This document shows, in pieces, positions 2,751 to 63,926 of a stretch of 64,000 bases of DNA (its first letter is position 1; every line of letters starts with the position of its first letter). The notes beneath the pieces are model-generated. The model made no database searches. It was not told the DNA's origin and saw nothing but the letters and a program-made list of their open reading frames with translations. The position numbers were made by a program, and so were the translations under genes. Source of the stretch: Aphanomyces cochlioides (Eukaryota > Oomycota > Saprolegniomycetes > Saprolegniales > Verrucalvaceae); NCBI GenBank assembly GCA_019828595.1, contig JAHQRK010000017.1, positions 682,001 through 746,000 of the forward strand, given 5' to 3'.

Positions 2751-5700
2751 ATGGAGGATTACGTTCTAGAGCACGTCCTGACCAAGGACACATATGGCAT
2801 TGTCTGCAAGGTGGTGCACAAGAAGACCTCCAACGCGTTTGCGATGAACATCTACGACAGTGCGATAATGCCGGTTGAACGTCAACACGCTCTCCACCGA
2901 GAACTTGAGATTTTACTTCCGATGCACCATCCAAACATCGACAACATACATGATTTTTATACCGAAGATGATCTGCTTTACGTCGTCCATGATTTAACAA
3001 ACGGCCAAGACCTCTACGAACGGATCATGGAGAAGGTGAGCTTAACCGTGATGTACATTTCTTAATATACGAGATAGGGGCACTTTTCGGAGGAGGATGC
3101 AGCGCCAATTATTCAAGTTATACTGGAAACTGTGAGAGATTGCCATGCTTTGGGAATTATACATCGAAATCTGAAGGTAGGTTTCCAATTTGGCCATCAT
3201 CATTAATCATGTATCATAGCCTGAGAGTATCGTCATTACTGATAGCTCAGAGATAAAATTATCCAACTTTCGACTGGCAACCTACTTATCTGGTGATCTT
3301 ACATCCATTTGTGGCTCTCCAGAGTATGAATTCATTTTTGATATGTAGCCTGATATCAATAATAGCTACATTGCGCCAGAAATCTTGGCAAACTCCAGTC
3401 GAAAGACAAAAATTCCCTACGGAAAAGAAGTTGACGTTTGGTCTTTGGGAGTTGTAACGTATGTTCTGCTAAGTGGGATGCTACCTTTCTGGGGCAAAGA
3501 TAACGAAGAGCTATTCCAAGCGATACAAACAGGGCGATTCAGTTTGTCGTCAAAACCATGGAGTGCAGTTTCTGCAACCGCCAAAGACTTTGTGTCAAGC
3601 ATGCTGGTTGTTGACCCCAAAAAAAGGTAAAGTCGATTTAAAAATTTACAGTCATATTAATTCAATCGATAGAGCCAATATTGAAGACATGTTACGCCAT
3701 CCATGGCTTGAGGCTTCATTGGTAATTTAGACCTTTGAAACTGTATCAAGCATTGCTCTAGTGTGCCAACGCAAAAAATGAAGGAGGGGGCCTGAAAATC
3801 CCAAGAAACACTCGAGCTCTGCGGAAAATGAGAGCTGCAGCACTCACAGTAATTTTTTGGTATTGAACTATTTCAACTCTTGTAGGTCCATGCAACTCTA
3901 CAACTGAAGAGAGTGTTTTGTTCGCCATTGAAAGAGAAATTGGGTCAGAATAAATCAGACCTTGTTGTCAAAGTGAATGAGGAACAAACGTCAAATATTG
4001 ACAAGTTTCTTCAGAAGTATGAAATCCACGAAGTCCTACAAGACACCAAATTTGGAGTAATGAGACGAGTGACAGACTTATCAACCCAAGAAGATTATGC
4101 AATGACGTCTTACTCCAAGGAATTGATGAATTTTGAAGATGAAATCGAACTTAATACCATGGTGGACATTCTGCGACGTGTAAAGCATCCAAATATCCTT
4201 CAATTGCACGACTTCTTTGTGAACCACGACGAATATTCCCTTGTCATGGAGCTGAGTAGAGATGGCGATTTGTTTGAAAGTGTTATGGCAAAGGTACTCT
4301 AATATTTCTCCGATAGTCAAATCTCATGATCAACTCTCCAGAGATTCTACATGGAAGACGAGGCCAGAATTGTCATGAAAAAATTGCTCCTGGCAGTTTC
4401 TCATTGCCATGAATTGCAAATCATTCATCGAAACATTAAGGTATCGTTGCTTCGCTGAACATTTTAATATTTTGGTACTCTAGCTTGAGAGTGTAATGAT
4501 GAATAATTCGCTGGATCAAATCAAGTTGGCGAACTTTGGCAAAACGACTCAAGTCGGGCCTGACGTTACTGAGGTCTGCGGTTCGCACGAGTACACAAAC
4601 ATGTCGAGCTCAGAGAATCTCACGTTCGATAGTTACATTGCCCCAGAAATTATTGCAAATCTCGACAAGTCAAGTCCGTACGGTGTTGCAGCGGATATCT
4701 GGAGTTTGGGAGTCCTAGCATTTGTTATGCTCTGTGGCTACTTGCCATTTCATGGTAACGACAGAAAAAATCTGTTCGCTAGCATTCAAAGTGGGCAATT
4801 CGAATTTGCTTCCCCCTATTGGGATGATGTGTCAAACTCTGCCAAGGAGTTTATCTCGAGTATGGTTGTTACAGACCCAAACAAAAGGTCCGATATTCAT
4901 TCTTCAGGTTGATAATATCATGTGATAGACCAAGTGCAGTTGAACTGCTTCAGCATGCGTGGATTTTAAATCTGAACGTAAGTTTCTCGAGTCAATTCAT
5001 TATAACCATGATTCAGCCCGACGACCGATACAAGCTCAATGGAGATGCGCACAAAAATCGGTTACTCATAAGGCGGAAGTTTAAGGCGGCTGTTCTTTCG
5101 GTCAAATCTGCTCTGTCGTTCAAACGATCGATCAGCTTCGCGTCGAAATACTCATTGTCAACTCCAACCGATCAACACTGCTTTTGCAAATCCACAGGGC
5201 GATGCTACAGTGTCTATTCGTTCGAAAAGAGCAATGCCAGCACAATCGAACTGTACAATCTTAAAAGAAAGGCAGCTCTTTTGCGTTCGCTCAAGCACTC
5301 CTTCATTTTGCATCTCGAAGATTTCATTAATGAGGAAAATTGTGCTTACTTTGTCATGGAGCATACTACAGGTGGTGATTTGTTTGACCGAATTGCCCAA
5401 AAGGTACGGGAATTGAGCAGCTTAGAATTAATCATAGATTAGGCATGTTATGGTGAATTTGAAGCGAGGAGAATAGTGAAGGCAATATTGGAAGCTGTGG
5501 ACTATTGCCATAAGATGAATATTGTCCACGCCAACTTGAAGGTAAGAGTAATATCTGGCCTCTTTGGCTGAAGAATACCCAATGTAGCCTGAAAGTGTAT
5601 GGTTTGAATCACCATTGGACAGTGCATCGATTAAGCTCACGAACTTTGGCGAAGTATCTCATAACTCGACGAAATCGATTGAGTATGTATGTCGTAGTTC

Positions 5701-6294
5701 ATATGCACTAAAATCCGAGTAGTTATATCGCTCCAGAGACTTTATTTAGACCCCGACGCGAAGATGACGAAGATGACAATGAAAAGCCCATGGACGTCTG
5801 GAGCATTGGAGTTCTGACTTACGTATTATTATGCGGATATCTGCCTTTTAATGGCCACAGCAACTTTGACTTGTTCAAAAACATTAAAAGGGGCAAGTTT
5901 GATTTTAAGTCGAAGGAATGGGATGCCATTTCAAATGAAGCTAAACATTTTATATCGAAGGCATTGGTTGTAAATCCTGAAGCAAGGTAATCCAGTCGCA
6001 TTATTTGCAATTCCTCAAGATTCCTTTCAGGGCCTCTGTTGAAAACCTGCTGCAAGATCCATGGATGACAATGAATAATGTAACTGCTGGTGACTTCGCT
6101 CAAGTAACTTCTTGTAGGTACCTTGTTCGCCTCTACTTGCAACCATCGAAAAAATACAAGCCTTAAATGCAAAACGAAAGTGTCTTGGAGGGTCCAACTT
6201 GTAAGTGCATACCAAGACACGCACTAAATAACCTTTCTACAGGACTTCCGACAGCACCTTGGAAGCATCAAGGAATCAAGTTTCTAGCGCGTGA
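2751..6294 (+). CDS. Tandem triple CaMK-like pseudokinase
   Basis: One spliced gene of roughly 940 codons with about 17 introns encodes three successive CaMK-type kinase folds (about 2751-3730, 3950-4980 and 5190-6090). Each keeps scaffold motifs (IAPE in the activation segment, DVWSLGV/DIWSLGV/DVWSIGV helix F, the CaMK C-lobe ending LLQHAW) but has lost catalysis: the VAIK lysine is replaced ([14 protein letters not shown]), HRD is HRN, HRN and HAN, and DFG is NFR, NFG and NFG. The Gly-rich loops are also degenerate. The domains are joined in frame through linkers resembling the CaMK autoinhibitory helix (for example [13 protein letters not shown]), so this is one polypeptide and not three genes. 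The first ATG of the open frame is at 2751; the stop is at 6292-6294. It sits head of a cluster of three apparently active relatives, suggesting local duplication and loss of activity. A scaffolding or allosteric role is inferred. Confidence 0.82.
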
Positions 6295-8049: not shown

Positions 8050-9169
8050 CTTGCTCGTCGCTTTCTGCAGTACACTTGTCCAGGTGGCTTGCACGAGACG
8101 GTCGTGTTGTTGGTCGATTGTATTTTCCACAGCGCAATTTTAAATACACCATTGGACAAAACAATATCCAATTGACCAATGAAAATAATTTACAAAATAA
8201 TTTAAGCCAATAAAATAGCTTGTTTCGCAGGAGGGGTGACACACTCGATACAAACGGCAAAAATGATTGGCTTAAATGTTTATTAAAAGCCAATTATAAA
8301 GTTTTAAATACATTATTTTATCCAATGAAATCATGCTTTTAAACGGGAGGAGAGTGGAGACGGTATACACAGTATTTAATTTGGAAGCTTAAGTTTGAGG
8401 ACGTTAGTCGATGCAAAAATTTTGTCGCATGCTTTCAAGGTGGGTAAAATTCAAGTCAGCAAGAGCTTGGTCAAATCCACTCACTGTGTCGCAGCCATCC
8501 TACAGTATATCCAAACAGATTACCACCAGTACAGGGCAAACAACCCCTTCGTTTGGTTTGGGAATAGAATTTCGAGACGAAAATAATACAGGTATTAATA
8601 GCCTCATAGGCTGATTAATGGCACCTCAATCGATTATACATCAAGACTGCAATACTCTGCTTGTGTGGAAGGGTAATGTCACCTCGTCACGCAACTAATA
8701 GCTTCAGTATTCACATGTCACCCTTCGATCCACGCCAGCTTATTCCTCGACTCGTACGACAACGCTTACACATACCGTACTATCATCTTTCCTTTAAAAA
8801 TTAATATTGTAGGGACGACGAGTAAGATTGTCAACATTTGAACAGCTTCTCTGTCATAGATACAACAGTACATCGATTTATTTACCCTATTTCTCCTCTT
8901 GAGCTTGTCTTTGCTCATAAATATTCGTGCAAGCCCGATGTCTTCACTTGGATTGACCTTTGAAATAGTCTTTAATATATTATAACCTTTATAATTAAGT
9001 TCAATAACATTTGGGAGTTATTTTGGTATGGGCTTATTCCATGGTATTGTAGTGGGTATAGGACCAGAAGATGATGAAAATTTGGTCGTGCGATGGACTC
9101 TCTACCAAGAATGCATGTGGCGAAAACGAAGGATGTCATTGCCATTTTCAATCCCCCGACGAAGTTTGA
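8050..9169. other. divergent promoter region between two kinase genes
   Basis: About 1.1 kb separates the divergent starts at 8049 (minus) and 9170 (plus). No convincing coding signal. The part nearest the minus-strand gene is rich in CCAAT boxes (separate entry). The remainder is AT-rich without recognisable features. Confidence 0.6.
8145..8335. promoter_or_regulatory. cluster of CCAAT boxes
   Basis: Within about 190 bp I count at least seven CCAAT/ATTGG pentamers (for example ccattggac, ccaattgaccaatg, gccaataaa, gattggctt, gccaatta, tccaatga), starting about 100 bp upstream of the minus-strand kinase ATG. Part of the stretch looks like an imperfect duplication (two blocks each ending in a GGAGG-rich segment). 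CCAAT boxes are bound by NF-Y in eukaryotes; binding here is inferred. Confidence 0.45.
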
Positions 9170-10417
9170 ATGGGCTGTGGCAAGTCGAAAGGATTGTGCC
9201 CGTCGTTTGGCCGAGGCAAAGAACAAGACGATGAAGGCCATGCCGAACAACAACAGCAACAAGATGGCGTCCTTCAAGATAGTGACGGCTTGACTACGCC
9301 ACCTGAATCGCCTCAAGCTGACTTGGATTCACCCATTCAAACGCGGCTCAGTGTGATCTCGAACCACCGATTTGAAGACACTTACGCCATGTCGAACGAG
9401 GACATTTTGGGCAAGGGTGCCTCTGCTACGGTGTACGTTGCTACTCACCGTCGAACACGGAAGCGCGTCGCGGTGAAATGCTTCACAAAGGCAAATATGC
9501 GTGAATCCGAAGTCCAAGAACTGTTTGAAGAAGTGGGCATTTTGAAACAAATGAAGCACCAGCACGTCTTGGAACTCTTTGATTTCTTCCACGAACCCAC
9601 CCATTATTATATTGTCACGGATCTCTTGGAAGGCGGTGAACTCTTTGAGCGCATTGTCGAGAAGGAATTCTACAGTGAAAAGGAAGCTCGTGATTTGATC
9701 AAGATTCTTCTTGAAGCCATTCAGTACATGCACAACCTCAACATTGTCCACCGTGATCTCAAGCCTGAAAACATTTTATTGCGCAGCATGTCCGACGACA
9801 CGTCCATCAAGATTTGCGATTTCGGCTTCGCCAAGTATGATGTTGATCGCAAGCTCAAGGAGAAATGCGGCTCCCCTTCGTACGCTTTTCCCTTCCGCAA
9901 CTAGCATGACCGTTTGTTGTAGATATGTCGCCCCTGAAATTCTCACGGATGAGTACTACGGCCGCGAAGTGGATATCTGGAGTGCCGGTGTTATCACGTA
10001 CATTTTGTTGTGCGGCTATCCTCCATTCCAAGGAGCGACCGATGCGGAGTTGCTCAAGCATGTCCAATCGGGCAAGTTTGAATTCGATGCGCCTTATTGG
10101 GACGACGTGAGCGATCTGGCCAAGTCCTTCGTTGCCAGTATGTTGGTGTTGGATCCTCTTCAACGACCATCAGCCGATGAATTGCTTCAACACCAATGGA
10201 TCACCGGAAATGTATCATCTGCCCCTCTCAAGACTGTCGTGCAAGAACTCAAGCGTTTCAATGCCCGCCGAAAATTCAAAGCTGCTGTCAAGACGGTATG
10301 ATTTCCTCGATCTACTTTGCGCTCATTATTTTCTAGGTCCAAGCCACTGTTTCCCTGCTTGGGCGAACGCGAACTCGTGGTGCTTCCCTTTCCGCGGAAG
10401 CCCAAAACAAGGTGTAA
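9170..10417 (+). CDS. CaMK-type Ser/Thr protein kinase with MGC lipidation signal
   Basis: The ATG at 9170 gives MGCGKSKG, a predicted N-myristoylation and palmitoylation signal. Three exons (introns 9880-9922 and 10296-10336) encode 387 residues. The kinase domain from about residue 70 has GKGASATV, VAVKCF, HRDLKPENILL, CDFGFAK, YVAPE and DIWSAGV, so it is catalytically complete. After the domain, the segment [16 protein letters not shown] continues through the last intron into VQATVSLLGR, matching the autoinhibitory/calmodulin-binding helix seen in CaMKI/CaMKII-type kinases. The C-terminus is only about 35 residues beyond that. It is tandem with the kinase at 10808 and divergent from that at 8049; all three share architecture and probably arose by local duplication. 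Confidence 0.9.
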
Positions 10418-32690: not shown

Positions 32691-34640
32691 CATTTCTTCC
32701 CCGCTCTTGGTTGTCAATTGTCAAATGCACTATCCACCGTTTCTCATCCAGGTTGAACCGGAAGGCATTGAGGATAACTTTTTATCTTACGACCACGATA
32801 CAGTACTTGTTTACGACGTTGAACCTTAATTATAAACGACTCCATGCGACTCGTTAGACTTTATCTTTACGATGGAGAAGTTCATAGACTTATCGTTTAA
32901 CGTGGAAAAGCTTAACTTTATAACTCTTTTACTGGTCAGCTTTAAAAAAATCGCATATTTTAGAAAGAAAAATCGCATATCTTAGAACAATCAAGCTATC
33001 GTGAGGTTAATCACTTATTGAAAGTCAACTATGGATAAGATGCGCAACAGAACGTCCGATGCATACTTATGCCAGTTTCCTATGCAGACGACCGTCAATC
33101 GACTACTTTCACTTTATTATCCTTAACAGAGTAACGTTAATGTGGTTAAGGTATCTTGAGTTTTGACTTGGTGAATCATATTGTCTTTTTCGTCCAAATT
33201 TTCAGTTTTGATCAAAATCGACGAAATTTGTGTGATCAATCTGGCAATAGTGAATTCAAGTATAATCGGAAGGTACATGAAATAATGTGTGTATGTGTTG
33301 GTGTGTTTTGTGTGTGTTTAAACAAATTCTGGACGCTGATTGGCTGGCTCGATTTGGTGATTGATTGAAAGTTTGATCGATTTCTGCCAGGTTCGGAAAT
33401 TTTGAGTCAATCAGACATTAACATCGCAGGCAAATGTGATATTTTTGAGATTATTGTTCTATTGGGTGTGATTTTTGAGAATCGCATTTTCCTCAATGTG
33501 AACTATCATGCATTCTCGTGTATAAGGAATTTATGTTGAAAATGATGATGGAAGCATTTCAGAGCAAATGTGATTTTAACAGCTTATTGGTTAAAACTTT
33601 AAGAATTGACTTGGACATAAGGATAGAATATGCTCATGACTAGTGCTGTAGGACACCTTAAACTATTTCTGTTTGTGAAATACGACTAGATTTCCCATCT
33701 ACCTAAGCGTGTTTGATATTTCAACTTAACGCAAGCCGCATTTGTGCATATTCATCCAGTTGTAGAAGCAAATGTCATTTTCAAGTAATGATGGCGCGGC
33801 TCCCTGGGGTCTGACGCACTTCCACACGTTGGAAGTACACGATTAAATATTATACTTTATTGATTAAAACATATTTCATCAACTTCCGTCCTCAACGACG
33901 AGTCGTCAACTCGCTTGGATTGTTTCTCCACTAGAAATTAATGCGCCTCGTACACTGTGCATTTCAAGTCAACACTTGATTTTAGCTCAAACACTAATCG
34001 AGAATTTTTTGGAGCCTTTGTAAACTTAAAGTGTAAATTATCATTTTGTTAATCAATGTAATTGTCAATGTGCTTTTATTTCCTGGTGTGTAATTTATCA
34101 ATTTTATTACTCTATCAATGTCGTTGTCAGTGTGAATTCATTACCTCCTTCATTTACGTGGGAAACAGAGGTGACAGTATTATCACAATCGTAGGAAGTT
34201 TCTAATCAAGCGTTGAGTGTGAAGATAAAAAGAAGCGTGTCGGTTAAGTCAATAAATAGTCATATTTTCGACCAATAATAATGCGTTCTGAACCGGTGAT
34301 TTCTCAAAATCACATTCACCTGAGTTGCATACATTTTAGTCTCCAAGGCTGGGTGGATAGTAGTTTCGAAGACTCTCTCGATTCTTATACTGCGGGCTGA
34401 ATTAGTTCGTGGGAAGTTATTGACGATGTTGACATGGAATTGTTCATAAGTTCTTGTCCTGAAAAGAGTCATAAGGTTCAATTTTTATAAATTGTTCCCA
34501 CGTTAACAGATATTATACGGATATGATTGGTTAAAATTTTCAATTAAATACATCTGATTGGCTGAAATTATAAATATTGACTATTTTGATTGGCTAATTT
34601 GGTTTGGACTTGACATTGATACACAAGACGACAAGAAAGC
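32691..34640. other. AT-rich intergenic region of 1.95 kb
   Basis: Low coding potential on both strands. Contains short direct repeats (aaaaatcgcatatttt/aaaaatcgcatatctt at about 32947-32986) and, at its right end, three GATTGG boxes (separate entry). No TE ends or RNA gene recognised. Confidence 0.55.
34525..34600 (-). promoter_or_regulatory. Three GATTGG (CCAAT) boxes upstream of the URI-TPR gene
   Basis: gattggttaa, gattggctga and gattggctaa occur at about 30-bp intervals, 45-115 bp upstream of the ATG at 34641. Regular spacing and proximity suggest an NF-Y-type promoter; inferred. Confidence 0.5.
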
Positions 34641-36294
34641 ATGACCAACTATGCCAAATGGGACCGCATTTTGAGGGAACTGGAGGAAGACGACTCGGAA
34701 GACGACACGAGGTACACTCAACACCACTTTCTAGTTTGCTGCATGTAGGTTTTTTAGCTCTAAACCGAAATCCGAGCAATTACCGCCTCTTTCGCACAAG
34801 CCTTTCCAGCTCAAACAGGTAGAAAATCCATGGATCCTGCGTACAATCGAATGCATTCGAGTAGGAAATCCATGAAGCAGCTGAAAAACTACACAAATTG
34901 GAAAAAGATTTGGCCGAGTATGAAGAACTGGGCAAGGTTGTCAAGGATCTGCCGTTGAAATTAGATCACGAGATTATGGTGCCGTTGGGAAAGCAAGCAT
35001 TTATTCCAGGCAAAATCATCCACGCGAATGAAATTCTCGCCCATCTCGGCGGCGAACACTTTGCAAAAAAGACGGCAAGCGAAACGTATGACATGGTCGA
35101 ACGGAAAAAGAAGAGTTAGTTCGATGCGATTGCTTGAGAGCTGACTGGAATGGCATGTAGATTTGACCAAGCAAATTGAACGCCAGGAAACTTGGCTGAA
35201 ATCTCTCCATGAGAAGCTTGGCGACGTGGATCACGTGTTGCAATTGAAAAAGGTAATTGTTCGACGTACAGCGTCGAGAAAATAACGTTGTGTAGATCTA
35301 CGAAGACGCCAATATTCAAGAAATCAAAGAGACTGAAGAAGAAAGCAACGAGGTGTTTGATGCGTCCGAGTTTACACAAGAAGACTATGACACGTACTTC
35401 GAAATTGAAAAGCAAGAAGCTGAAAAGCTAGCATCATCTGCTTGGGACTGGTATGTATCCAAGTTTATAGATCAAATGTGTAACGTATGTAGGGATGAAG
35501 CCATGCGAAGGCTAGAAGAGCTCGAGCAAAATGAGGACGGCGACGGTAGAAATTATTTCTTCGGCTTGCTATAACTTCTTGCTGTAGCCACAGAGGAGAA
35601 AGTTCCAACCAGTCAAGTCAAGATCAACGAAGTTGATCAAGTCAAGCAGCAAGGAAATGCCGCTTTTGCGTCGGCAAATTACTCGTCAGCACTCGAATTG
35701 TACACAAAAGCCATTGACCTTGCACCCATGTCGCATGTAAATGCTTCAATGATGGCTTGTTGATGGAAATGCAATGTAGACATTGTTTGGCAATCGCTCG
35801 GCTGCACATTATCACTTGAAACAATTTGCAGAAGCGAAAAAGGATGCTGAACAAGCCATTTCAATTGATCCTACATGGGCAAAGGTAGGCTCGATGGATG
35901 TTTGCATCAAGTGAAACTATATCTTTGTGTTGTGCAGGGGCATTTTCGACTCGGTCAAGCTTTAGCCGCAATGGGTCATTACGAAGATGCTGCGAAATCG
36001 TTTGAAGAAGCGGCACGACTCAAGCCTTCCGACAAGAGTAGCACGACCATGGCCACTGAAATGCGCCAAAAAGCTGAAAATGCACAACGACTGAAGCAAC
36101 TCAGCGCCAGAGACAAAGAACGCTCCTCTGTCTTCACTGGCACGGTGGTTGAACGAGGGCAGAACGAAGTCAACGCTGGGAACACTGTTGCTGAGGTAAG
36201 CAAATACTCGTGCATTGATTTAATTACTGCGGAGCAGCAGCCACCCAAGCGCGTCTCTCGATTCAAAGCCATGCGTCAAGGCCAACAACAGTAG
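34641..36294 (+). CDS. URI-type prefoldin domain fused to TPR domain
   Basis: About ten exons encode roughly 410 residues. MTNYAKWDRILRELEEDDSEDD starts the protein; an alpha-class prefoldin/URI domain follows (VPLGKQAFIPGKIIHANEILAHLGGEHF flanked by two helices), then an acidic region, then a three-repeat TPR unit (VKQQGNAAFASANYSSALELYTKAIDLAP, LFGNRSAAHYHLKQFAEAKKDAEQAI, FRLGQALAAMGHYEDAAKSF), a basic tail and RVSRFKAMRQGQQQ. URI is the scaffold of the R2TP/prefoldin-like co-chaperone complex, in which RPAP3 supplies TPRs for HSP90; here both kinds of domain sit on one polypeptide. The start is the only ATG that begins before the first intron. A truncated, decayed copy lies inverted at 61045-62372. 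Confidence 0.82.
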
Positions 36295-36524
36295 AGCGAG
36301 CAATTCTAATAGCAGTCCAAATTTGTTGAATCATGATCAATCTTGCAGTAGCGTCAATCTGAAATTATTTCATCAGCTTTATGGTATTATTACGGCCATG
36401 ACGACATTACAAGACGAGAGAAATGCATTCACACGACGAGGGTACTGGCACACGCATCATACTAAAGACATTTCTGCAGCAGGAGCGACAACCAAACACG
36501 ATGGAAAAGGCTTAACACATATTA

Positions 36525-36724
36525 AGTATTTAACAAAAACTACAGTGTATTGATATGCTATTGCTAAACATGCAAGCCGAACGCACTCAGTGCTTGAATC
36601 GCTTGGCCTTTGAATCGGCTTGGTCGTCCTGCGCAAGACGCTTTTTCTTGTGGTCTTGAGGCGGAAATGGGAAATTTTCTTCCATTCGCCCTGAGGTCTC
36701 TTCATATCGCCGCTTCTGACGCCT
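36525..36724 (-). repeat. Truncated copy 0 of the 2-kb palindromic unit
   Basis: Matches the 3' end of the unit's gene on the minus strand (compare 38650-38835): the tail cgcactcagtgcttg, the ctttttct...gaggcggaaatgg block and the cttcatatcgccgctt block, with about 10-20% differences and small insertions that break the frame. It ends abruptly at about 36724 and is joined directly to the hairpin end of copy A, as if the rest of a head-to-head partner had been deleted. Confidence 0.75.
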
Positions 36725-36733
36725 GAGTTTGGC

Positions 36734-38579
36734 TTATCCGGAAACCGAACAGCTTTACCGGATAAGCCAATTATGTCATGTGTGGCCTGGCATGTCTGAC
36801 GACATGATGAGGTCGAACGATCGTGGTGCCGACGAGAGACGGCGTTTCAACGTGGTCAGGAGAAACGACTTAAAAGGTCAAATGCTTATCGACGGTCGAT
36901 GTGGAATGAATTCTTCTTGACCCGACCATCTGCTGCTGGTTTGCCAAGACACTGTCGCATGGATGTGTTTGGATTGCCCGAAATTGTCTGAAGCGACCGA
37001 CTTGTCCCGATAGCTATCCTCAAGAAGCAACCCAACACCAAGTCACTTTACAAATCAAGTCTCTCTTCGAGCCATTTCGTCGAGGGATGCCCCATGGACT
37101 TCCGTTTCAAGCATGGAACATTAATGATTGAACTGAAATCCATGGGCCATCCCCTCCTCAAGGAATTTCACTGCATTGAAATGTCACTTCTTATGGACCT
37201 GCGCGTACGTCTCGTGGCCCACATCACGACAACAAATTGCCTGTCCCATTCGACGCCCAAGTCCTCATTTCGAACCTTCACCGTACTTGAAACTCCCTCT
37301 ATCTCCATGTCATCTTGGTGCCAACGTCTGTGCATCATTGGTAAATTTCGAAGAGCCCAATCACGACGCGCCATCGTTCAACATAACGAAACCACCAATT
37401 TGACCAAAGAAGAAAGATCCGAGCCAACGACGGCCGATGCAGGAAACACCCATCGCTCCACTCCATTGAACGATGGAAACGAAGACAGCGAGCTTGCGTT
37501 CCTGCCTCGAGACGCAAATATGGATGTCCCGCCGATGATGAAGCCACAAGAAGACATGACGACGAGCCAATTCACTGCGACCATGCCTGACGTCAAGACG
37601 GCCGAAAAGACCGTGGAAGAAGAAATGATTTGGACGGCGACTACAATTCCAAGACAAAAATGCAAGACCTCGACCTCCGCGAAGACTATCTATGAAGACG
37701 AGTCCAAAGTGGAAGAAAAAAACCCACAATCAACCACGACATCCAACTTGAAGCCATTCATGCGCATTGAAGAAGAAGAATTTGCCGATTTCAACAGTGA
37801 ACGCTCAACGCCCGTGAAGCGCTCGTACGAAGACCATGAGAGCGATTCCCAAGTGGCCAAGCGACTCCGCATAGACGAACCGAAGACCCGGCGCTCGGCT
37901 CTCAAACGACGTCCACATCCAGACGAAGAAGAGAAGACCATCTTCCGGTGCGTCCAGTTCTCGACTGTCCAAATCTTCAGCTTTGGGGTCGAGTTGGGCG
38001 AGTGCACCGTTCCCGAGGATACGGGATTTCCGCTCGGGATGGAACAAGAACACTGGCACGAAGAATGGGTCGACTTGTCGACTATCTCAGTGGAAGCCAA
38101 GAGCCACGAGAACAGACCAGACCCGAAAGAACCTGAAGACACAGAAGAAACAGGTCCCAACATGTCCAACATTTCGAATGATGGACAAGAAGGCACGGAG
38201 GGCACGAAGTCCAAGACAGAAAAGAAGAAGCGCATAGGCCTCCGCAAGGTTGCCAAGGACATACGCGTGGATCGACTCGAAGATGCCGGCGTGACGTATG
38301 ATGAAATGACCGTCTACGGGAACGAGGCCTATCAGATCTTGGTATCGCGCCAGGCCGAGGTCATCAAGTACAAGACAGAAAAGCGTCGAAAGCGGCGATA
38401 TGAAGAGAGCTTGCGCCGCATGGAAGAAAATTTTCCATTTCCGCCTCAGAAAAAGCGTCCTGCGCAGGAGGACCAAGCCGAGTCGACTGCGAAGCGATAC
38501 AAGCACTGAGTGCGTTTGGCCTACATATTTAGCAGACGAATTTTTGTTAACTACATAATACATGTTTAGCCTTTTCCAT
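36734..38579 (+). repeat. Copy A of the 2-kb palindromic unit
   Basis: Begins with the hairpin ggcttatccgg...ccggataagcc and ends at ccttttccat, the same two ends as copies B and C. The 3' 1.14 kb (from about 37440) appears identical to B and C, while the 5' 700 bp differs at several percent and carries indels, including loss of about 105 bp of coding sequence. It faces copy B tail to tail across a 57-bp spacer (38580-38636). Confidence 0.85.
37094..38509 (+). CDS. Charged protein of the repeat unit, copy A (altered N-terminus)
   Basis: 471-codon frame. From AGNTHRSTPLND to the C-terminus it is identical to the proteins of copies B and C. The segment that contains the probable start Met of B and C (NNMLATIRAYCASVLS and following) is deleted, and an upstream frame instead opens to ATG 37094. 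The upstream part corresponds to non-coding sequence in the other copies, so the N-terminal 110 residues are probably not genuine. Conserved features: acidic/basic low-complexity regions, a central VQFSTVQIFSFGVELG...VPEDTGFPLG block resembling a short conserved motif seen in many oomycete proteins of unknown function, and a Lys/Arg-rich C-terminal helix (EKRRKRRYEESLRRMEENF). Function unknown. Confidence 0.5.
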   Translation: MDFRFKHGTLMIELKSMGHPLLKEFHCIEMSLLMDLRVRLVAHITTTNCLSHSTPKSSFRTFTVLETPSISMSSWCQRLCIIGKFRRAQSRRAIVQHNETTNLTKEERSEPTTADAGNTHRSTPLNDGNEDSELAFLPRDANMDVPPMMKPQEDMTTSQFTATMPDVKTAEKTVEEEMIWTATTIPRQKCKTSTSAKTIYEDESKVEEKNPQSTTTSNLKPFMRIEEEEFADFNSERSTPVKRSYEDHESDSQVAKRLRIDEPKTRRSALKRRPHPDEEEKTIFRCVQFSTVQIFSFGVELGECTVPEDTGFPLGMEQEHWHEEWVDLSTISVEAKSHENRPDPKEPEDTEETGPNMSNISNDGQEGTEGTKSKTEKKKRIGLRKVAKDIRVDRLEDAGVTYDEMTVYGNEAYQILVSRQAEVIKYKTEKRRKRRYEESLRRMEENFPFPPQKKRPAQEDQAESTAKRYKH

Positions 38580-38706
38580 CGTGTTGGAAAAATATCTGAA
38601 GGAAAGGACCATGGGCATCAATGTCGAAGCCACACAATGGAAAAGGCTAAACATGTATTATGTAGTTAACAAAAATTCGTCTGCTAAATATGTAGGCCAA
38701 ACGCAC

Positions 38707-39879
38707 TCAGTGCTTGTATCGCTTCGCAGTCGACTCGGCTTGGTCCTCCTGCGCAGGACGCTTTTTCTGAGGCGGAAATGGAAAATTTTCTTCCATGCGG
38801 CGCAAGCTCTCTTCATATCGCCGCTTTCGACGCTTTTCTGTCTTGTACTTGATGACCTCGGCCTGGCGCGATACCAAGATCTGATAGGCCTCGTTCCCGT
38901 AGACGGTCATTTCATCATACGTCACGCCGGCATCTTCGAGTCGATCCACGCGTATGTCCTTGGCAACCTTGCGGAGGCCTATGCGCTTCTTCTTTTCTGT
39001 CTTGGACTTCGTGCCCTCCGTGCCTTCTTGTCCATCATTCGAAATGTTGGACATGTTGGGACCTGTTTCTTCTGTGTCTTCAGGTTCTTTCGGGTCTGGT
39101 CTGTTCTCGTGGCTCTTGGCTTCCACTGAGATAGTCGACAAGTCGACCCATTCTTCGTGCCAGTGTTCTTGTTCCATCCCGAGCGGAAATCCCGTATCCT
39201 CGGGAACGGTGCACTCGCCCAACTCGACCCCAAAGCTGAAGATTTGGACAGTCGAGAACTGGACGCACCGGAAGATGGTCTTCTCTTCTTCGTCTGGATG
39301 TGGACGTCGTTTGAGAGCCGAGCGCCGGGTCTTCGGTTCGTCTATGCGGAGTCGCTTGGCCACTTGGGAATCGCTCTCATGGTCTTCGTACGAGCGCTTC
39401 ACGGGCGTTGAGCGTTCACTGTTGAAATCGGCAAATTCTTCTTCTTCAATGCGCATGAATGGCTTCAAGTTGGATGTCGTGGTTGATTGTGGGTTTTTTT
39501 CTTCCACTTTGGACTCGTCTTCATAGATAGTCTTCGCGGAGGTCGAGGTCTTGCATTTTTGTCTTGGAATTGTAGTCGCCGTCCAAATCATTTCTTCTTC
39601 CACGGTCTTTTCGGCCGTCTTGACGTCAGGCATGGTCGCAGTGAATTGGCTCGTCGTCATGTCTTCTTGTGGCTTCATCATCGGCGGGACATCCATATTT
39701 GCGTCTCGAGGCAGGAACGCAAGCTCGCTGTCTTCGTTTCCATCGTTCAATGGAGTGGAGCGATGGGTGTTTCCTGCATTGTCTTCTTCGTTGCTGGCCG
39801 TCGTTGGCGCTGGCTGGCTGGTGTAGCTCGTCACGTGCGAGAGCACGGACGCGCAGTAGGCTCGGATCGTGGCAAGCAT
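38707..39879 (-). CDS. Charged protein of the repeat unit, copy B
   Basis: 390 residues from the first in-frame ATG (MLATIRAYCASVLSHVTSY) to the stop at 38707-38709; the frame stays open another 40 codons upstream without a further ATG. Identical in sequence to copy C. Low-complexity acidic and basic regions surround a conserved block with FSTVQIFSFGVELGECTVP and FPLGMEQEHWHEEW; the C-terminal 90 residues are highly basic and helical with nuclear-localisation-like runs (KTEKKKRIGLRK, KRRKRRYEE). No transposase, nuclease or membrane motif is visible. A nuclear protein is plausible; function unknown. Confidence 0.65.
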   Translation of the reverse strand: MLATIRAYCASVLSHVTSYTSQPAPTTASNEEDNAGNTHRSTPLNDGNEDSELAFLPRDANMDVPPMMKPQEDMTTSQFTATMPDVKTAEKTVEEEMIWTATTIPRQKCKTSTSAKTIYEDESKVEEKNPQSTTTSNLKPFMRIEEEEFADFNSERSTPVKRSYEDHESDSQVAKRLRIDEPKTRRSALKRRPHPDEEEKTIFRCVQFSTVQIFSFGVELGECTVPEDTGFPLGMEQEHWHEEWVDLSTISVEAKSHENRPDPKEPEDTEETGPNMSNISNDGQEGTEGTKSKTEKKKRIGLRKVAKDIRVDRLEDAGVTYDEMTVYGNEAYQILVSRQAEVIKYKTEKRRKRRYEESLRRMEENFPFPPQKKRPAQEDQAESTAKRYKH

Positions 39880-40302
39880 GTTGTTTGTCGGCTCGGATCT
39901 TTCTTCTTTGGTCAAATTGGTGGTTTCATTCTGCTCGACGATGGCGCGTCGTGATTGGGCTCTTCGAAAATTGTGCCATTGATGCGACGTTGGGAGCAAG
40001 ATGGCATCGAGATAGAGGAAGTCTCAAATCTGTTGAAGGTTCGAAATGAGGACTTGGGTGTCAATAGGGAGAACAACTTTGTTGCAGGGAGCTGCATCAC
40101 AAGCTCGAGTCGGAGGTCCATAAGAAGCGACATTTCAACGCAGTGAATTTTCTTGACGAGGGAATGGCCCATGGATTTCAGTTTCAAGCATTAATGTTCC
40201 ATGCTTGAAACGGAAGTCCATGGAGCATCCCTCGAGGAAATGGCCCCAAACAAGCCTTGACTGGAGAAGGGACTTGGCGTTGGGTTGTTTCTTGAGGATC
40301 AT

Positions 40303-40338
40303 CGATTCGGTCATCGATTCGGTCATCGATTCAGGGCA
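40303..40338 (+). repeat. 14-bp tandem repeat, three units
   Basis: tcatcgattcggtca repeats about three times; mirrored at about 41017-41052 in the right arm. Confidence 0.7.
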
Positions 40339-40568
40339 CATTTTGGGCACATTTTTGGCAATCCAAACACATCCATACATCCATGCGACGGTGTCTCGGC
40401 AAACCAGCTACAGATGGTCGAGTCGAGAAGGTTTCACATAGATCGTCGACAAGCATTTGACCTTGTAAGTCGTTTCTCCCGACCACGTTGAAACGCCGTC
40501 TCTCGTCGGCACCACGATCGTTCGATCATGTCATCGGACATGCCAGGCCACACCTGCCCTTGTGAGTT

Positions 40569-40786
40569 GGCTTATCCGGTAAAGTTGTTCGGTTTTCCGG
40601 ATAAGCCAAACTCAGCTTCAATTTCATGGGCTTATCCGGTAAAGTTTTCATGTTTTCCGGATAAGCCAAACTCAGCTTCCATTTCATGGGCTTATCCGGT
40701 AAAGTTTTCATGTTTTCCGGATAATCCAAACTCAGCTTCCATTTATAGGCTTATCCGGAAAACCGAACAACTTTACCGGATAAGCC
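40569..40786. repeat. Hairpin array at the palindrome centre
   Basis: Four potential hairpins (stem ggcttatccgg / ccggataagcc, 17-nt loop, 39 nt in total) start at 40569, 40629, 40689 and 40748. The first three are on a 60-bp tandem unit (hairpin plus a tcagcttc-type linker of about 21 bp); the outer pair belongs to the palindrome arms and has loops reading gttgttcgg or its complement, whereas the two inner copies have gttttcatg loops and lie in the 140-bp asymmetric spacer 40608-40747. The third hairpin has one mismatch (ataatcc). Confidence 0.9.
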
Positions 40787-42718
40787 AACTCACAAGGGCA
40801 GGTGTGGCCTGGCATGTCCGATGACATGATCGAACGATCGTGGTGCCGACGAGAGACGGCGTTTCAACGTGGTCGGGAGAAACGACTTACAAGGTCAAAT
40901 GCTTGTCGACGATCTATGTGAAACCTTCTCGACTCGACCATCTGTAGCTGGTTTGCCGAGACACCGTCGCATGGATGTATGGATGTGTTTGGATTGCCAA
41001 AAATGTGCCCAAAATGTGCCCTGAATCGATGACCGAATCGATGACCGAATCGATGATCCTCAAGAAACAACCCAACGCCAAGTCCCTTCTCCAGTCAAGG
41101 CTTGTTTGGGGCCATTTCCTCGAGGGATGCTCCATGGACTTCCGTTTCAAGCATGGAACATTAATGCTTGAAACTGAAATCCATGGGCCATTCCCTCGTC
41201 AAGAAAATTCACTGCGTTGAAATGTCGCTTCTTATGGACCTCCGACTCGAGCTTGTGATGCAGCTCCCTGCAACAAAGTTGTTCTCCCTATTGACACCCA
41301 AGTCCTCATTTCGAACCTTCAACAGATTTGAGACTTCCTCTATCTCGATGCCATCTTGCTCCCAACGTCGCATCAATGGCACAATTTTCGAAGAGCCCAA
41401 TCACGACGCGCCATCGTCGAGCAGAATGAAACCACCAATTTGACCAAAGAAGAAAGATCCGAGCCGACAAACAACATGCTTGCCACGATCCGAGCCTACT
41501 GCGCGTCCGTGCTCTCGCACGTGACGAGCTACACCAGCCAGCCAGCGCCAACGACGGCCAGCAACGAAGAAGACAATGCAGGAAACACCCATCGCTCCAC
41601 TCCATTGAACGATGGAAACGAAGACAGCGAGCTTGCGTTCCTGCCTCGAGACGCAAATATGGATGTCCCGCCGATGATGAAGCCACAAGAAGACATGACG
41701 ACGAGCCAATTCACTGCGACCATGCCTGACGTCAAGACGGCCGAAAAGACCGTGGAAGAAGAAATGATTTGGACGGCGACTACAATTCCAAGACAAAAAT
41801 GCAAGACCTCGACCTCCGCGAAGACTATCTATGAAGACGAGTCCAAAGTGGAAGAAAAAAACCCACAATCAACCACGACATCCAACTTGAAGCCATTCAT
41901 GCGCATTGAAGAAGAAGAATTTGCCGATTTCAACAGTGAACGCTCAACGCCCGTGAAGCGCTCGTACGAAGACCATGAGAGCGATTCCCAAGTGGCCAAG
42001 CGACTCCGCATAGACGAACCGAAGACCCGGCGCTCGGCTCTCAAACGACGTCCACATCCAGACGAAGAAGAGAAGACCATCTTCCGGTGCGTCCAGTTCT
42101 CGACTGTCCAAATCTTCAGCTTTGGGGTCGAGTTGGGCGAGTGCACCGTTCCCGAGGATACGGGATTTCCGCTCGGGATGGAACAAGAACACTGGCACGA
42201 AGAATGGGTCGACTTGTCGACTATCTCAGTGGAAGCCAAGAGCCACGAGAACAGACCAGACCCGAAAGAACCTGAAGACACAGAAGAAACAGGTCCCAAC
42301 ATGTCCAACATTTCGAATGATGGACAAGAAGGCACGGAGGGCACGAAGTCCAAGACAGAAAAGAAGAAGCGCATAGGCCTCCGCAAGGTTGCCAAGGACA
42401 TACGCGTGGATCGACTCGAAGATGCCGGCGTGACGTATGATGAAATGACCGTCTACGGGAACGAGGCCTATCAGATCTTGGTATCGCGCCAGGCCGAGGT
42501 CATCAAGTACAAGACAGAAAAGCGTCGAAAGCGGCGATATGAAGAGAGCTTGCGCCGCATGGAAGAAAATTTTCCATTTCCGCCTCAGAAAAAGCGTCCT
42601 GCGCAGGAGGACCAAGCCGAGTCGACTGCGAAGCGATACAAGCACTGAGTGCGTTTGGCCTACATATTTAGCAGACGAATTTTTGTTAACTACATAATAC
42701 ATGTTTAGCCTTTTCCAT
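40748..42718 (+). repeat. Copy C of the 2-kb unit, right arm of a perfect palindrome
   Basis: Reverse complement of 38637-40607. After the common end ccttttccatcgtgtt the sequence diverges from the flanks of copies A and B, marking the unit boundary. Confidence 0.92.
41476..42648 (+). CDS. Charged protein of the repeat unit, copy C
   Basis: 390-residue frame identical to that of copy B; the same features and the same uncertainty apply. Upstream of ATG 41476 the frame is open for 40 codons but has no Met, so either this ATG is used or an upstream exon is spliced in. An upstream short frame (ATG 41168) overlaps in another phase and stops at 41443. Confidence 0.65.
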   Translation: MLATIRAYCASVLSHVTSYTSQPAPTTASNEEDNAGNTHRSTPLNDGNEDSELAFLPRDANMDVPPMMKPQEDMTTSQFTATMPDVKTAEKTVEEEMIWTATTIPRQKCKTSTSAKTIYEDESKVEEKNPQSTTTSNLKPFMRIEEEEFADFNSERSTPVKRSYEDHESDSQVAKRLRIDEPKTRRSALKRRPHPDEEEKTIFRCVQFSTVQIFSFGVELGECTVPEDTGFPLGMEQEHWHEEWVDLSTISVEAKSHENRPDPKEPEDTEETGPNMSNISNDGQEGTEGTKSKTEKKKRIGLRKVAKDIRVDRLEDAGVTYDEMTVYGNEAYQILVSRQAEVIKYKTEKRRKRRYEESLRRMEENFPFPPQKKRPAQEDQAESTAKRYKH

Positions 42719-43205
42719 CGTGTTTGATTGTCGCTGCGCAAGATGCCTGAGAGAAATATGCCATGGGAGACAAGTCGCCGTCTTGGATGACCGAGAACTC
42801 AGCAACGGGGACTACTTTGCCAAACCTATCATCGGCTTTGCACTTGGACATTTGATGCTGCTAGACAGTGATCGTGCAAGTGGCATACACTTGATGTCGC
42901 TGTTGAAATCAAGGAATTATGGCTGAAATACCAAGATGCGTCGACGGGATGGTCAATGATTCCGACAAATTTGAGACGATCTTTCAAGCCGACGAGTATG
43001 AATCCAGTACGCCGCTCCTTTTGCATTGGATCTTCCATCTCATGCTGTCCATCCGAGTTCAGGGATGCATGTTTTTCCTCTTGGCCATTAGATAATCTTA
43101 TCGGTCATCTTATTACTACGAGTTGAAGACATTCCTTTCAACATTGACAATGACATGATAAAGTGGAACATTTTTGAAGCATGCATGTAGATTCGAAGAG
43201 CTGTC
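42719..43205. other. intergenic, nothing recognised
   Basis: Sequence beyond the palindrome boundary and before the PP2C stop; no coding or repeat signal that I can support. Confidence 0.5.
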
Positions 43206-44190
43206 CTACTTGTTGAGAAGACCAATGATGACGCTCATGTTGTCGCGACTGCCCTTGTGCAAGCATTCGTCCATGAGGAGTTCTGCCGTCTCCTGAGCGG
43301 ATTTGCCTTGGCGAAGTTTGTCTCGCACAAACTTTTGCACTTGCTCGTTTGACATGACATCGTAAATGCCGTCACAACACAAGACGAGGAATTCATCAGT
43401 GGCTTGACGGGGATGAATATTCACGCATGGTTCTGCAATCACGAGATGTTCCCATGGCTTCTTGTCGGGGTTATTTTCTTCGTTGCGCTTGAACCAAAAA
43501 TCGCCAAAGCCACGGCTCACAGCCACACCACCGCACACACGACCGCGGAAAACATTACCACCTGCTGCAATAATGCGAAGTTTCTCGGCTTCATGATCTG
43601 GCTTGTGATCCAAAGACATTTGAAGTGGAGTATGAGAGTCTTTTTCGCTCAAAATGCAGCGAGAATCACCTACGCTCAATCATGAACTAGAATCAGTGTT
43701 GATGCGTTGAACGAACCAACGTTGGCCGAAAAGATATGGTTTTCAGTCACAATGACAACCAGACCGGTGCATCCAACTTCGTCAGCCGTTCCGTCCTTGG
43801 TCATTTCACGGAGTGTATCATCTGTGGCCAAGAAGGCTTCGCTCAACGCGGCCACCATTAAGTATGGGTCCTTTCCATCGTACTTCTTATAGCTTTCCGT
43901 CTCAACCAAGTGTCCAAGGATCTTGTCCGCCCTAGAAAAATAAGATCTTTCAGCACACCTGGTCTTTTCTAGTCGTCCTACGTGGCCTTGGCGATGAAAT
44001 CACCGCCGTGTCCATCAAAAATGGCCAAGCATGCGCCTTTCTTTGGCAATTCGGGTTCAATTAGCTCGGCATCTTCCATCGTTTCTCGCCAGCCCTGCAT
44101 ACAGCTTACGCCGATCTTCAACGCTAGCATCGGCGCTTCATACGATGAAGACTTCTTCTCCGTGAGTGGTTCTTGCAGGAAGCGTGACAT
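43206..44190 (-). CDS. PP2C-family protein phosphatase (PPM)
   Basis: Three exons encode about 295 residues. All PP2C motifs with metal-binding acidic residues are present: GWRETMEDAEL, FDGHGGDFIAK, ANVG-DSRCIL (split by an intron), MSLDHKPD, GGVAVSRGFGDFWFK, LVLCCDGIYDVMS and GSRDNMSVIIG. It is therefore predicted to be an active Mn2+/Mg2+-dependent Ser/Thr phosphatase. The ATG at 44190 gives MSRFLQEPLTEKKSS, a short N-terminal extension without targeting features. The stop is at 43206-43208. It is adjacent to the palindromic repeat but intact. Confidence 0.93.
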
Positions 44191-44771
44191 GCTGCGTCAG
44201 TCTCTGTCGATTGTCGAATGTCGGTCGTGTCGCGCTTGCTATTGTTACAACCCAACTGGAAATCAAAATACGACGACCTAATGTATCATATCTTACATTT
44301 AATCAATACAATTTCCAAGTATAAATTCATACGACCATAATGTACTGTAATTATCCAAAAATAATGAAAAGATGTACAAAATTCACGCCAAAATTGTATT
44401 TAAATTTCTTTAAGACATTTTATTATTCATCCACAAGTTCGACGCGCTGGACAGCCCATGGCTTTTTGACTATCCTAGGTACTCCAACTCGCTGTCAGAC
44501 TAGAGAGCGTCAGGAATTACCATGGCGATTGTCTCCGAGTGTGGAATATGATTTATTCTGGAAGTGTCAACGGAATTCGATCTTAATTCAAATTTTGGAT
44601 TTTTAATTGATTTTTGTAGTTTTTAATTTTTTTTCCAAATTTGCTTATTCACGTTCGAACGACACAAGCGAACAATCCCATCGACAACCAGAGTTCATGG
44701 AGACGGTCGTGAAATGCACACGAAAGCAAAGGATGAGATAAGAGTATGTAGAAGAGATAGATTCACGAGAT
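44191..44771. other. intergenic, AT-rich
   Basis: Contains the PP2C promoter and the CDC50-2 3' region. No gene or repeat recognised. Confidence 0.5.
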
Positions 44772-46145
44772 TTAATTCTTTCCACCGCGCCAGACGAGGT
44801 AATTGGTGTCACCGAGTTTACGGGGCGACAATTTATGCTTGGCAAAGAAGAAGAGGCTCAAGAGCATGCAAATGCCACCGACAACAATGTACGCCAAGCC
44901 CAAGAATGCATTGCGGCCACCGTACCACGACAACGTCGAAATGACGATCGATTTGCGGCCTTCAAAGCTCTGCACGGGGAAATCTAAACGGAGAAAACAG
45001 ATTACAATCAGGTCAATGACGACTGTGATGGACGTACTGCTAGAAATCAAAAATTGGAGCTTCGTGCCCTTGGGCAAGTCTTGGTCGATGCGACCATACT
45101 TCTTTCTAAAGTTGGGCAGCCCAGCCGTGCGCATCCACAACACAAAGCGTTCAGTTTCAACGCCATAGTTGGGAGTCGGAGTTGTCCAGCCCGTTTGGTT
45201 GATAATGGGGTCTTGGTTTGGTGTCGATGGAATGACCCAGCGGTACTTTTGGTTTTGCCACAAGTAGAGGTCTGAGCTCGAGATTGTCTCGTAGTTCTTG
45301 AACTTAGTCTCCAAGTCGGACTTCCACGCCAAGCCCGACTGGGACATGAGGTTCAAAACGTTCACGGACGTGTTGGGGTACGTATCCGTCTGGCCAAGGT
45401 ACGTTCCATTGGGCAAAGTCACACTGAGGACCCAAAACATGTCGTTGAAGAGACTGTTGGCGATGAGACCGCAAGGATTCAGGTTGTACTCAGCCTTGAC
45501 CGCAGACGAGTCCAGAGGACTAGTCGAGTTGTACTTGTAGTCTGTAATCGTTTTCGCTCCATCACACGTATCGGTATTGGGGTTAGCAAGAGCGCGCAAC
45601 TGGCTATCACTGCGAGATTGAACGTAGCGACGGTGGTTTTGGTAGAAGTTGTCCAATTGGTAGTACACCATAATCGGTCCTTTCATATCTTGCTCTAAAG
45701 TGAAGGTTGCAATGCACCCATGAAGGGAAATGTTAAACTTGTTCCCTTCGTCGTCTGTTGGTAAAGCGCACGACGAAGTTGAGCTCAAAGGTTGCAAACT
45801 TGCACCTGCAGTGGCCAAACCCGAGCTTGGGTCAATCCCGTCATATTGAATGCCCATTTCCACGACCTATAGAACTCTCCTCAATAATGATCCAATTTGA
45901 AGCTCATACATCGAGGTTTTCATGGTACAAGACGACTCCGATCGGAATAAAGATGAGACCAACGAGAAAATATGTGCCAATGACCCATGCTGGGGTCAAA
46001 ATTGGCTGCCAGGCCTTGAGCCTTTGCTGCTTGAAGGGTGTGTCTACACAAATACGTTATTACACTACGACGTCATGCGAAAACGCATGGATATACCTTC
46101 AGGACGTCTCGACGGCGCCTCGTCCTTGGCCGCAGAGTTTGCCAT
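44772..46145 (-). CDS. CDC50/LEM3 family P4-ATPase flippase beta subunit, paralogue 2
   Basis: Four exons encode about 405 residues: [16 protein letters not shown], then [17 protein letters not shown], transmembrane helix 1 ([20 protein letters not shown]), the exoplasmic domain with [39 protein letters not shown] and [18 protein letters not shown], and transmembrane helix 2 ([18 protein letters not shown]) with [17 protein letters not shown]. The final intron lies within SSN-FPV as in paralogue 1. It diverges from paralogue 1 mainly in the exoplasmic loop, suggesting pairing with different P4-ATPases. Stop at 44772-44774. Confidence 0.93.
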
Positions 46146-60699: not shown

Positions 60700-61044
60700 A
60701 ATGTATCGTTCGTGAGTTTCACCACTCTTGATGGAGGAATGCAGCCAAACGTTTTCGTCCTTGCTCAAAGATCGTCGTCGAATCGTTTGTTTTGGCTATA
60801 AAAGTTTCGCCTGGAAACTTCAACAGGAATCAATCAATATGTCGACTTGGTTGTTTTTTAGTCTATATTGGAGGATGAGCATTTATCTTTTGGCCGAGGG
60901 AGAGGTCTGAACGCGCGGAGGACCTTGATAACACAATTCCCCCTAAATTTCACCAACATACAATATATATTTTCAGCACGTTGTGGAAATTCAATTTTAC
61001 ATTGTAGCAAGATTGATCACGGCTCAACCAGCTTTGTATGTTGC
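60700..61044. other. flank between two pseudogenes
   Basis: The first 230 bp still align to 58220-58490 and belong to the LRR duplicate; the rest is AT-rich without features. Confidence 0.45.
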
Positions 61045-62372
61045 TAGCATTGCTCGCTCTACTGTTGTTGGCCTTGACGCATGGCTTTGAATCGAGAGAC
61101 GCGCTTTGGCGGCTGCCGCCGCTCTGCAGTGATAAAATCAGTTGATGAATAGCTGCTTACCTCAGCAACAGAGCTCCCAGCATTGACTTCATTCTACACT
61201 CGTTCAACCACCATACCAGAGAAGACAGAGGAGCGCTCTTTGTCTCTGGCGCTAAGTTGGTTCAATCATCAGTCTTTAGGCGCATGTCAGTGGCCAAGGT
61301 CGTGCTACTCTTGTCGGAAGGCTTGAGTCGTGCCGCTTCTTCAGACGATTTCGCAGCATCTTCGTAATGTCTCACGGCAGCTAAAGCTTGACCGAGTCGG
61401 AAATGGCCCTGCACTACGCAAAGATATAAGTTTCACTTGATGCAAACATCCATCGAGCCTACCTTTGCCCATGTAGGATCAATTGAAATGGCTTGTTCAG
61501 CATCATTTTTGCTTCTGCAAATTGTTTCAAGTGATAATGTGCAGCCAAGCGATTGCCAAACAATGTCTACATTGCATTTCCATCAACAAGCCATCATTGA
61601 AGCATTTACATGCGACGTGGGGTGCAAGGTCAATGGCTTTTGTGTACAATTCGAGTGCTGACGAGTAATTTGCCGACGCAAAAGCGGCATTTTCTTGATG
61701 CTTGACTTGATCAACTTCGTTGATCTTGACTTGACTGGCTGGAACTTTCTCCTCTGTGGCTACAGCAAGAAGTTATAGCAAGCCAAAGAAATAATTTCTA
61801 CCGTCGCCGTCCTCATTTTGCTCGAGATCTTTTAATCTTCGCATGGCTTCATCCCTACATACGTCACACATTTGATCTATAAACGTAGAAACATACCAGT
61901 CCCAAGCAGACGATGCTAGCTTTTCAGCTTCTTGTTTTTCAATTTCAAAGTGCGTGTCATAGTCTTCTTGTGTAAACTCGGACGCATCAAACACCTCGTT
62001 GCTTTCTTCTTCAGTCTCTTTGATTTCTTGAATATTGGCGTCTTCGTAGATCTACACAACATTACGTTCTCGACGCTGTACAGCGAACAATTACTTTTTT
62101 CAATTGCAACGCGTGATCCACGTCGCCAACTTTCTCATGGAGAGATTTTAGCCACGTTTCCTGGCGTTCAATTTGCTTGGTGAAATCTACATGCCATTCC
62201 AGTCAACTGTAAAGCAACAGCGTCAAACGAACTCTTCATTTTCCGTTTGACCATGTCGTCCGTTTCGCTTGCCGTCGTTTTTGCAACGTGTTCGCCGCCG
62301 AGATGGGCGAGGATTTCATTCGCGAGGACGATTTTGCCTGGAATAAATGCTTGCTTTTCCAACGTCACCAGG
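61045..62372 (-). pseudogene. 5'-truncated pseudogene copy of the URI-TPR gene
   Basis: Reverse complement of the intact gene at about 34990-36320, including its introns, at high identity (for example SEFTQEDYDTHFEIEKQEAEKLASSAWD against DTYFEIEK in the intact copy). Because introns are retained this is a DNA-level duplication, not a retrocopy. The 5' prefoldin start and the first three exons are missing: homology stops at about 62372 before the VPLGKQAF region. Frame breaks and a lost splice context are present through the TPR region. Homology at the other end reaches just past the parental stop codon. Confidence 0.85.
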
Positions 62373-63582: not shown

Positions 63583-63823
63583 TGTGTGTAGTAGTAGATT
63601 CCGCATAGCATAGTATCTCATAAGCAGGAATTTCGTCGTTCTACACGCCACGAGCTTGCACACTTTTGCTCTCTCCATTGCGCTTGCGAGACTGCACAGA
63701 GGGGTATGCAAGCATGCCATACAGCCGTTGTATCCGTCCTGGTTGCCATAACGAACCACGAGGGCGTTCCGCCACGGCTCAAGGTTGGCCTCGCTGCAGT
63801 GCGGACCGCCGACCGACGTCATG
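63583..63823. other. right-end flank, minus-strand frame of unknown meaning
   Basis: A 97-codon minus-strand frame (63580-63873) is Cys/Met-rich and overlaps both the MITE edge and the copy D remnant; I do not regard it as a gene. Confidence 0.4.
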
Positions 63824-63926
63824 AAGCGATGCAAGCACTGAGTGCGTTCGTCCTGCAGATGCAGCTGTAGCATATTGAATTTTTGTTAGCATAAATACAA
63901 TTTTTTGCCTTTTCCATCGCGTTTGC
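63824..63926 (+). repeat. Remnant copy D of the 2-kb palindromic unit (3' end)
   Basis: Aligns to the 3' end of copy C (42625-42725): gcgatgcaagcactgagtgcg against gcgatacaagcactgagtgcg, then a diverged middle with gaatttttgtta, and ccttttccatcgcgttt against ccttttccatcgtgttt. It ends at the same terminus as copies A and C, about 21 kb away. Confidence 0.7.

Follow-up and report, generated by a model that had tools for sequence, protein, structure and literature searches.

An alternating inverted gene array in Aphanomyces cochlioides with identical palindrome arms and a mosaic third copy: a case for recent gene conversion

How do two inverted copies of a gene come to be identical over 1,971 nucleotides (nt) while a third copy beside them is identical along its 3' part and diverged along its 5' part? 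The question is raised by a locus on contig JAHQRK010000017.1 of Aphanomyces cochlioides, an oomycete that is the agent of sugar-beet root rot. All coordinates given without a contig name are positions in the 64,000-nt stretch of this contig that was analyzed (the window), which contains no N. The assembly as a whole comprises 94 contigs and 76 Mb, and its other contigs are referred to by short handles such as C2 or C45.

An exact palindrome within an alternating array

The original prediction described a perfect palindrome carrying identical genes in head-to-head orientation, and arm-to-arm comparison confirmed both parts of this description. After reverse complementation, positions 38637-40607 and 40748-42718 agree at 1,971 of 1,971 nt on either side of a 140-nt spacer, an identity far beyond chance, and the coding sequences in the two arms, copies B and C, give the same 390-amino-acid (aa) protein. 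The two genes are head-to-head and face away from each other. Extended by an inverted-repeat search, the arms reach 38632-40607 and 40748-42723 (1,976 nt), with a lone mismatch at 38636.

This palindrome makes up one half of a larger array of alternating copies. A third copy, A, sits beside B and C, and together with B it forms a second palindrome (37437-38584 and 38632-39779; 1,148 nt, 1 mismatch) around a 47-nt spacer. From left to right the array consists of Z on the minus strand, A on the plus strand, the 47-nt spacer, B on the minus strand, the 140-nt spacer, and C on the plus strand, the lettered elements all being copies of one gene:

36484..36722, minus strand: Z, an inverted relic of the 3' end, 76-77% identical to the corresponding ends of A, B, and C, with the family 3' motif at 0 mismatches
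36731..38588, plus strand: A, with a diverged 5' part and a 3' part that from 37437 is the same as B and C
37437..38588, plus strand: identity tract of A, 1,152 nt with 1 mismatch (38586) against C and 1,143/1,143 against B
38585..38631, no strand: A-B spacer, 47 nt, tail-to-tail, with edges GTGT and ACAC
38632..40607, minus strand: B, the left arm, exact portion 38637-40607
40748..42723, plus strand: C, the right arm, exact portion 40748-42718

The region of Z has 3 stops inside the matched stretch 36590-36787.

Copy A is a mosaic. Upstream of the identity tract, 559 of 644 aligned sites agree between A and C, with 55 gap columns (13% differing sites plus indels), and A is missing the stretch where B and C have their start codon. 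Near 37437, inside the gene and beside deletions in A, the alignment switches abruptly from diverged to identical, and no change occurs at the approximately 228 synonymous sites of the identity tract. Selection as the source of the identity was ruled out by the synonymous and noncoding sites. Unless the assembly itself homogenized the copies, a copy with a diverged 5' part and an identical 3' part means that diverged copies underwent homologous exchange at least once in the recent past.

Zero differences between B and C in 1,971 nt place their divergence below 0.15% at 95%, which agrees with the earlier suggestion that the palindrome is very recent. Compared with the 13% that separates the 5' part of A from C, this value indicates that the homogenizing or copying event was much younger than the split between A and C.

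Gene conversion and competing explanations

On balance, we lean toward gene conversion, or an equivalent homologous repair, that recently homogenized B, C, and the 3' part of A within an inverted gene array. The inverted array, in which Z-A and B-C are both head-to-head over hairpin-bearing sequence, would be the older state. A break or stalled fork at a hairpin-rich center would then have been repaired off the opposite arm, with the copied tract extending outward from each palindrome center until heterology was reached. For B and C this heterology would be the outer end of the unit, and for A it would be the deleted stretch near 37437. Such an event would be recent and would have overwritten older diverged sequence. 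In favor of conversion, a single process covers both tracts, each of which runs from a palindrome center to heterology, and the head-to-head layout is already present in the older Z-A pair. In addition, the A-B spacer was not found elsewhere in the assembly, where two patterns spanning 38587-38631 had no other occurrence at up to 3 mismatches each, and it bears no resemblance to the flank of C beyond chance. The spacer was rejected as C's own 3' flank, the alignment score being equaled by 623 of 2,000 shuffles and 712 of 2,298 control stretches. Its scores against Z and against D, a detached relic of the same family described below, were equaled in 240 and 29 of 2,000, respectively, the latter on the strength of 9 matching nt, and both comparisons were set aside.

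Several observations weigh against conversion. No difference between B and C exists within the exact arms, so conversion and a fresh copy look alike there, and the left end of the A tract is not base-sharp, with the 35 nt of A directly left of its deletions also the same as in C. Assembly polishing could wipe out small real differences, and conversion leaves unexplained the junction features that other models address. Family pairs on contigs C2 (81%) and C45 (77%) were not kept identical, so conversion is not constant. Mirror pairs of this family can therefore drift in this genome, and a recent event is the better reading of the identity between B and C. The original prediction had included arms kept identical by gene conversion; conversion is indeed the best-supported option, while continuous maintenance gives way to a recent event in view of the mosaic A and the two diverged pairs.

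A fresh inverted duplication is the main rival, to which we give a distinctly smaller chance. A template switch at the hairpin array would recently have produced B from C, or C from B, and A would have exchanged its 3' half with one of them in the same or a separate repair (break-induced replication with switches). The lack of any difference over 1,971 nt agrees with this, as do inner arm ends that fall at 39-bp hairpin units. Before the hairpin, B has A-like upstream sequence (CTGAGTTT) and C is joined to an inverted form of it, while the family 3' motif is present at C and was not found at B at 1 mismatch or fewer; a fold-back would split native flanks in this way. The 47-nt A-B spacer edged by GTGT and ACAC is also what switches of the type proposed for origin-dependent inverted-repeat amplification (ODIRA) would leave. 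However, A would still require homologous exchange, the A-B spacer was not found elsewhere in the assembly, and the Z-A pair makes the head-to-head layout older. The outer tip of B, where the lone mismatch at 38636 is followed by 4 matching nt, is odd for a fresh copy, though the 4 nt may be chance. ODIRA as the source of the whole array, an inverted triplication A-B-C that was altered later, appears very improbable. The plus-minus-plus orientation is in keeping with it, the 47-nt A-B spacer and its edges would suit the short inverted repeats of the model, and such junctions are said to rearrange and their spacers to lengthen (PMC10766186). As we read the model, its one-step form should yield three identical copies, the first and third of them followed by an identical flank, yet the 5' half and 3' flank of A differ from those of C, and the base adjoining ACAC in B is the mismatch at 38636. 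One-step ODIRA was rejected on these flanks. By our reading, a simple fold-back or one-step inverted triplication should likewise leave A and C followed by matching flanks, and these differ.

The original prediction had also allowed for a rolling-hairpin mechanism generating head-to-head dimers. This found no support, as the flanks after A and C differ and a search of the assembly with the arm gave at least 14 matches, all on C9 and C45 and all belonging to this gene family. A transposon or virus was rejected on the result of this search, the matches being confined to two contigs and one family rather than forming many dispersed copies. An assembly or polishing artifact, either a false fold-back or a consensus correction that equalized near-identical copies, is unlikely. 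Consensus polishing can in general homogenize close repeats, but the sequence to the left of A is unlike that to the right of C, and the two spacers also differ, which makes an artifact less likely; moreover, the 5' half of A is still diverged, and the assembly is contiguous, with no N in the window.

Hairpin-bearing units and resemblance to known palindromes

Hairpins occur in the array at the following positions:

40569..40762, no strand: tandem repeat of 60-bp units, 3.2 copies, with a 39-bp hairpin GGCTTATCCGG...CCGGATAAGCC in each unit
41121..41198, plus strand: strong hairpin of 78 nt within the 5' region of C, with its mirror in B at 40157-40234 and the corresponding position in A at 37081-37153

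Most of the B-C spacer (40608-40747) lies within the tandem repeat. At zero mismatches, the 39-bp hairpin motif occurs at 4 places in the 76-Mb assembly, all inside the array. The 78-nt hairpin was found at 3 places, corresponding to A, B, and C only, and the family 3' motif was found at 4, all in or near the array. An Rfam search of window positions 34000-45000 returned no match. It is conceivable but doubtful that these units have a broader role, triggering recombination locally so that a mirror gene array is rebuilt and resynchronized time and again, in a small oomycete counterpart of sex-chromosome palindromes.

The array shares with gene-converted palindromes its near-identical arms around an unmirrored spacer and the mosaic identity in A near 37437. 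Arm-to-arm conversion in the human Y palindrome P6 involves tracts whose minimum length averages 2,068 bp (PMC3723533). The array resembles mammalian sex-chromosome palindromes such as P6 in its inverted gene copies, near-perfect arms, distinct spacer, and tract scale of about 2 kb. In contrast, its arms measure 2 kb versus 110 kb in P6, it has no known sex linkage, and two other family pairs are diverged here, so conversion looks episodic. The ODIRA model begins at inverted repeats of about 5 nt located 40 to 80 nt apart (PMC10766186). The junctions of the array are 47 nt (A-B, with GTGT and ACAC) and 140 nt (B-C) long. Three copies in plus-minus-plus order and one 47-nt spacer with 4-nt inverted-repeat edges are alike, whereas the 5' half and flanks of A lack the repetition that a one-step event predicts.

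A title-level search of the open-access literature for gene conversion in inverted or head-to-head paralogs of oomycetes or Phytophthora, and for Aphanomyces CSRNP, found no report on this locus. The array would represent a known process in a small and well-preserved form, among organisms for which the titles searched included no such report. If real, the side-by-side presence of identical, half-converted, and diverged copies would make it possible to date and map recent conversion tracts in a plant-pathogenic oomycete. Trees of paralogs from such arrays would mislead, since a tree built from the 3' half of A would conflict with one built from its 5' half.

The gene family and other inverted repeats in the assembly

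The coding sequences of the palindrome and a further family relic in the window are as follows:

38707..39879, minus strand: coding sequence of B, 390 aa, protein identical to that of C
41476..42648, plus strand: coding sequence of C, 390 aa (P0001), a single open frame with a borderline CSRNP_N match
63823..63925, plus strand: D, a detached 3'-end relic of the same gene family, 78% identical to C, with the family 3' motif

Residues 205-295 of P0001 align to positions 5-95 of the CSRNP_N model (PF16019), covering less than half of it. Stretches of genomic sequence from A, B, and C scored 27.1 bits against a Pfam cutoff of 27, and the whole of P0001 scored 25.6, below the cutoff. Judged from this partial and borderline match, the product of B and C is a putative nuclear protein. 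A protein search with P0001 gave 4 matches at an E value of 0.001 or less among 2,953 candidates drawn from about 5.8 billion sequences: the window's own protein, two Aphanomyces euteiches proteins (66% and 62%), and A. cochlioides AC1031_017229 (29%), which is encoded on C45 of the same assembly at 100%. The A. euteiches entry P0002 represents 14 sequences, which come from 14 contigs.

Inverted repeats were surveyed in 314,000 bases, divided into 32 stretches (25 loci of 10 kb plus the window as 7 pieces). The presence of family members was the reason for including several of the 25 loci, so that the figures below are not a genome-wide count. The family palindrome on C2 (C2:154983-155942; positions 4983-5942 of locus L015) is 81% identical and has tail-to-tail reading frames. 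One of its two tested frames is weakly CSRNP_N-like and the other has no match at an E value of 0.01; the protein search matches both strands. The family palindrome on C45 (C45:2335133-2335499; positions 9133-9499 of locus L010) is 77% identical and consists of two head-to-head 3'-end relics, like Z beside A. With C9 included, inverted pairs of the family were seen on three contigs, which may reflect a preference for this layout. Four more palindromes that span their centers, in loci L009, L015, L024, and L025, are 72-86% identical.

Near-identical inverted repeats (at least 97%) outside the array were present in 2 of the 25 loci, L022 and L025. Locus L022 (C9:400001-410000) contains two opposite, nearly identical copies of proteins that look like endonucleases and reverse transcriptases, and includes one pair of 236-nt arms that are 97.5% identical and about 190 nt apart. 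Because of these proteins, L022 probably contains retrotransposons. In locus L025 (L035/L025; C9:799692-803312), inverted arms of 665 nt are 99.5% identical and about 2.3 kb apart, with a transposase-like open reading frame nearby.

On C3, locus L034 (C3:1681501-1691500) lies in a cluster of CSRNP_N-like matches of mixed orientation, where inverted repeats are 73-74% identical. Within the window, a TPR-repeat gene that is apparently multi-exon (34977-36346, plus strand) has a 91% identical inverted second copy at 61007-62370 (minus strand), 24.7 kb away on the opposite side of the array.
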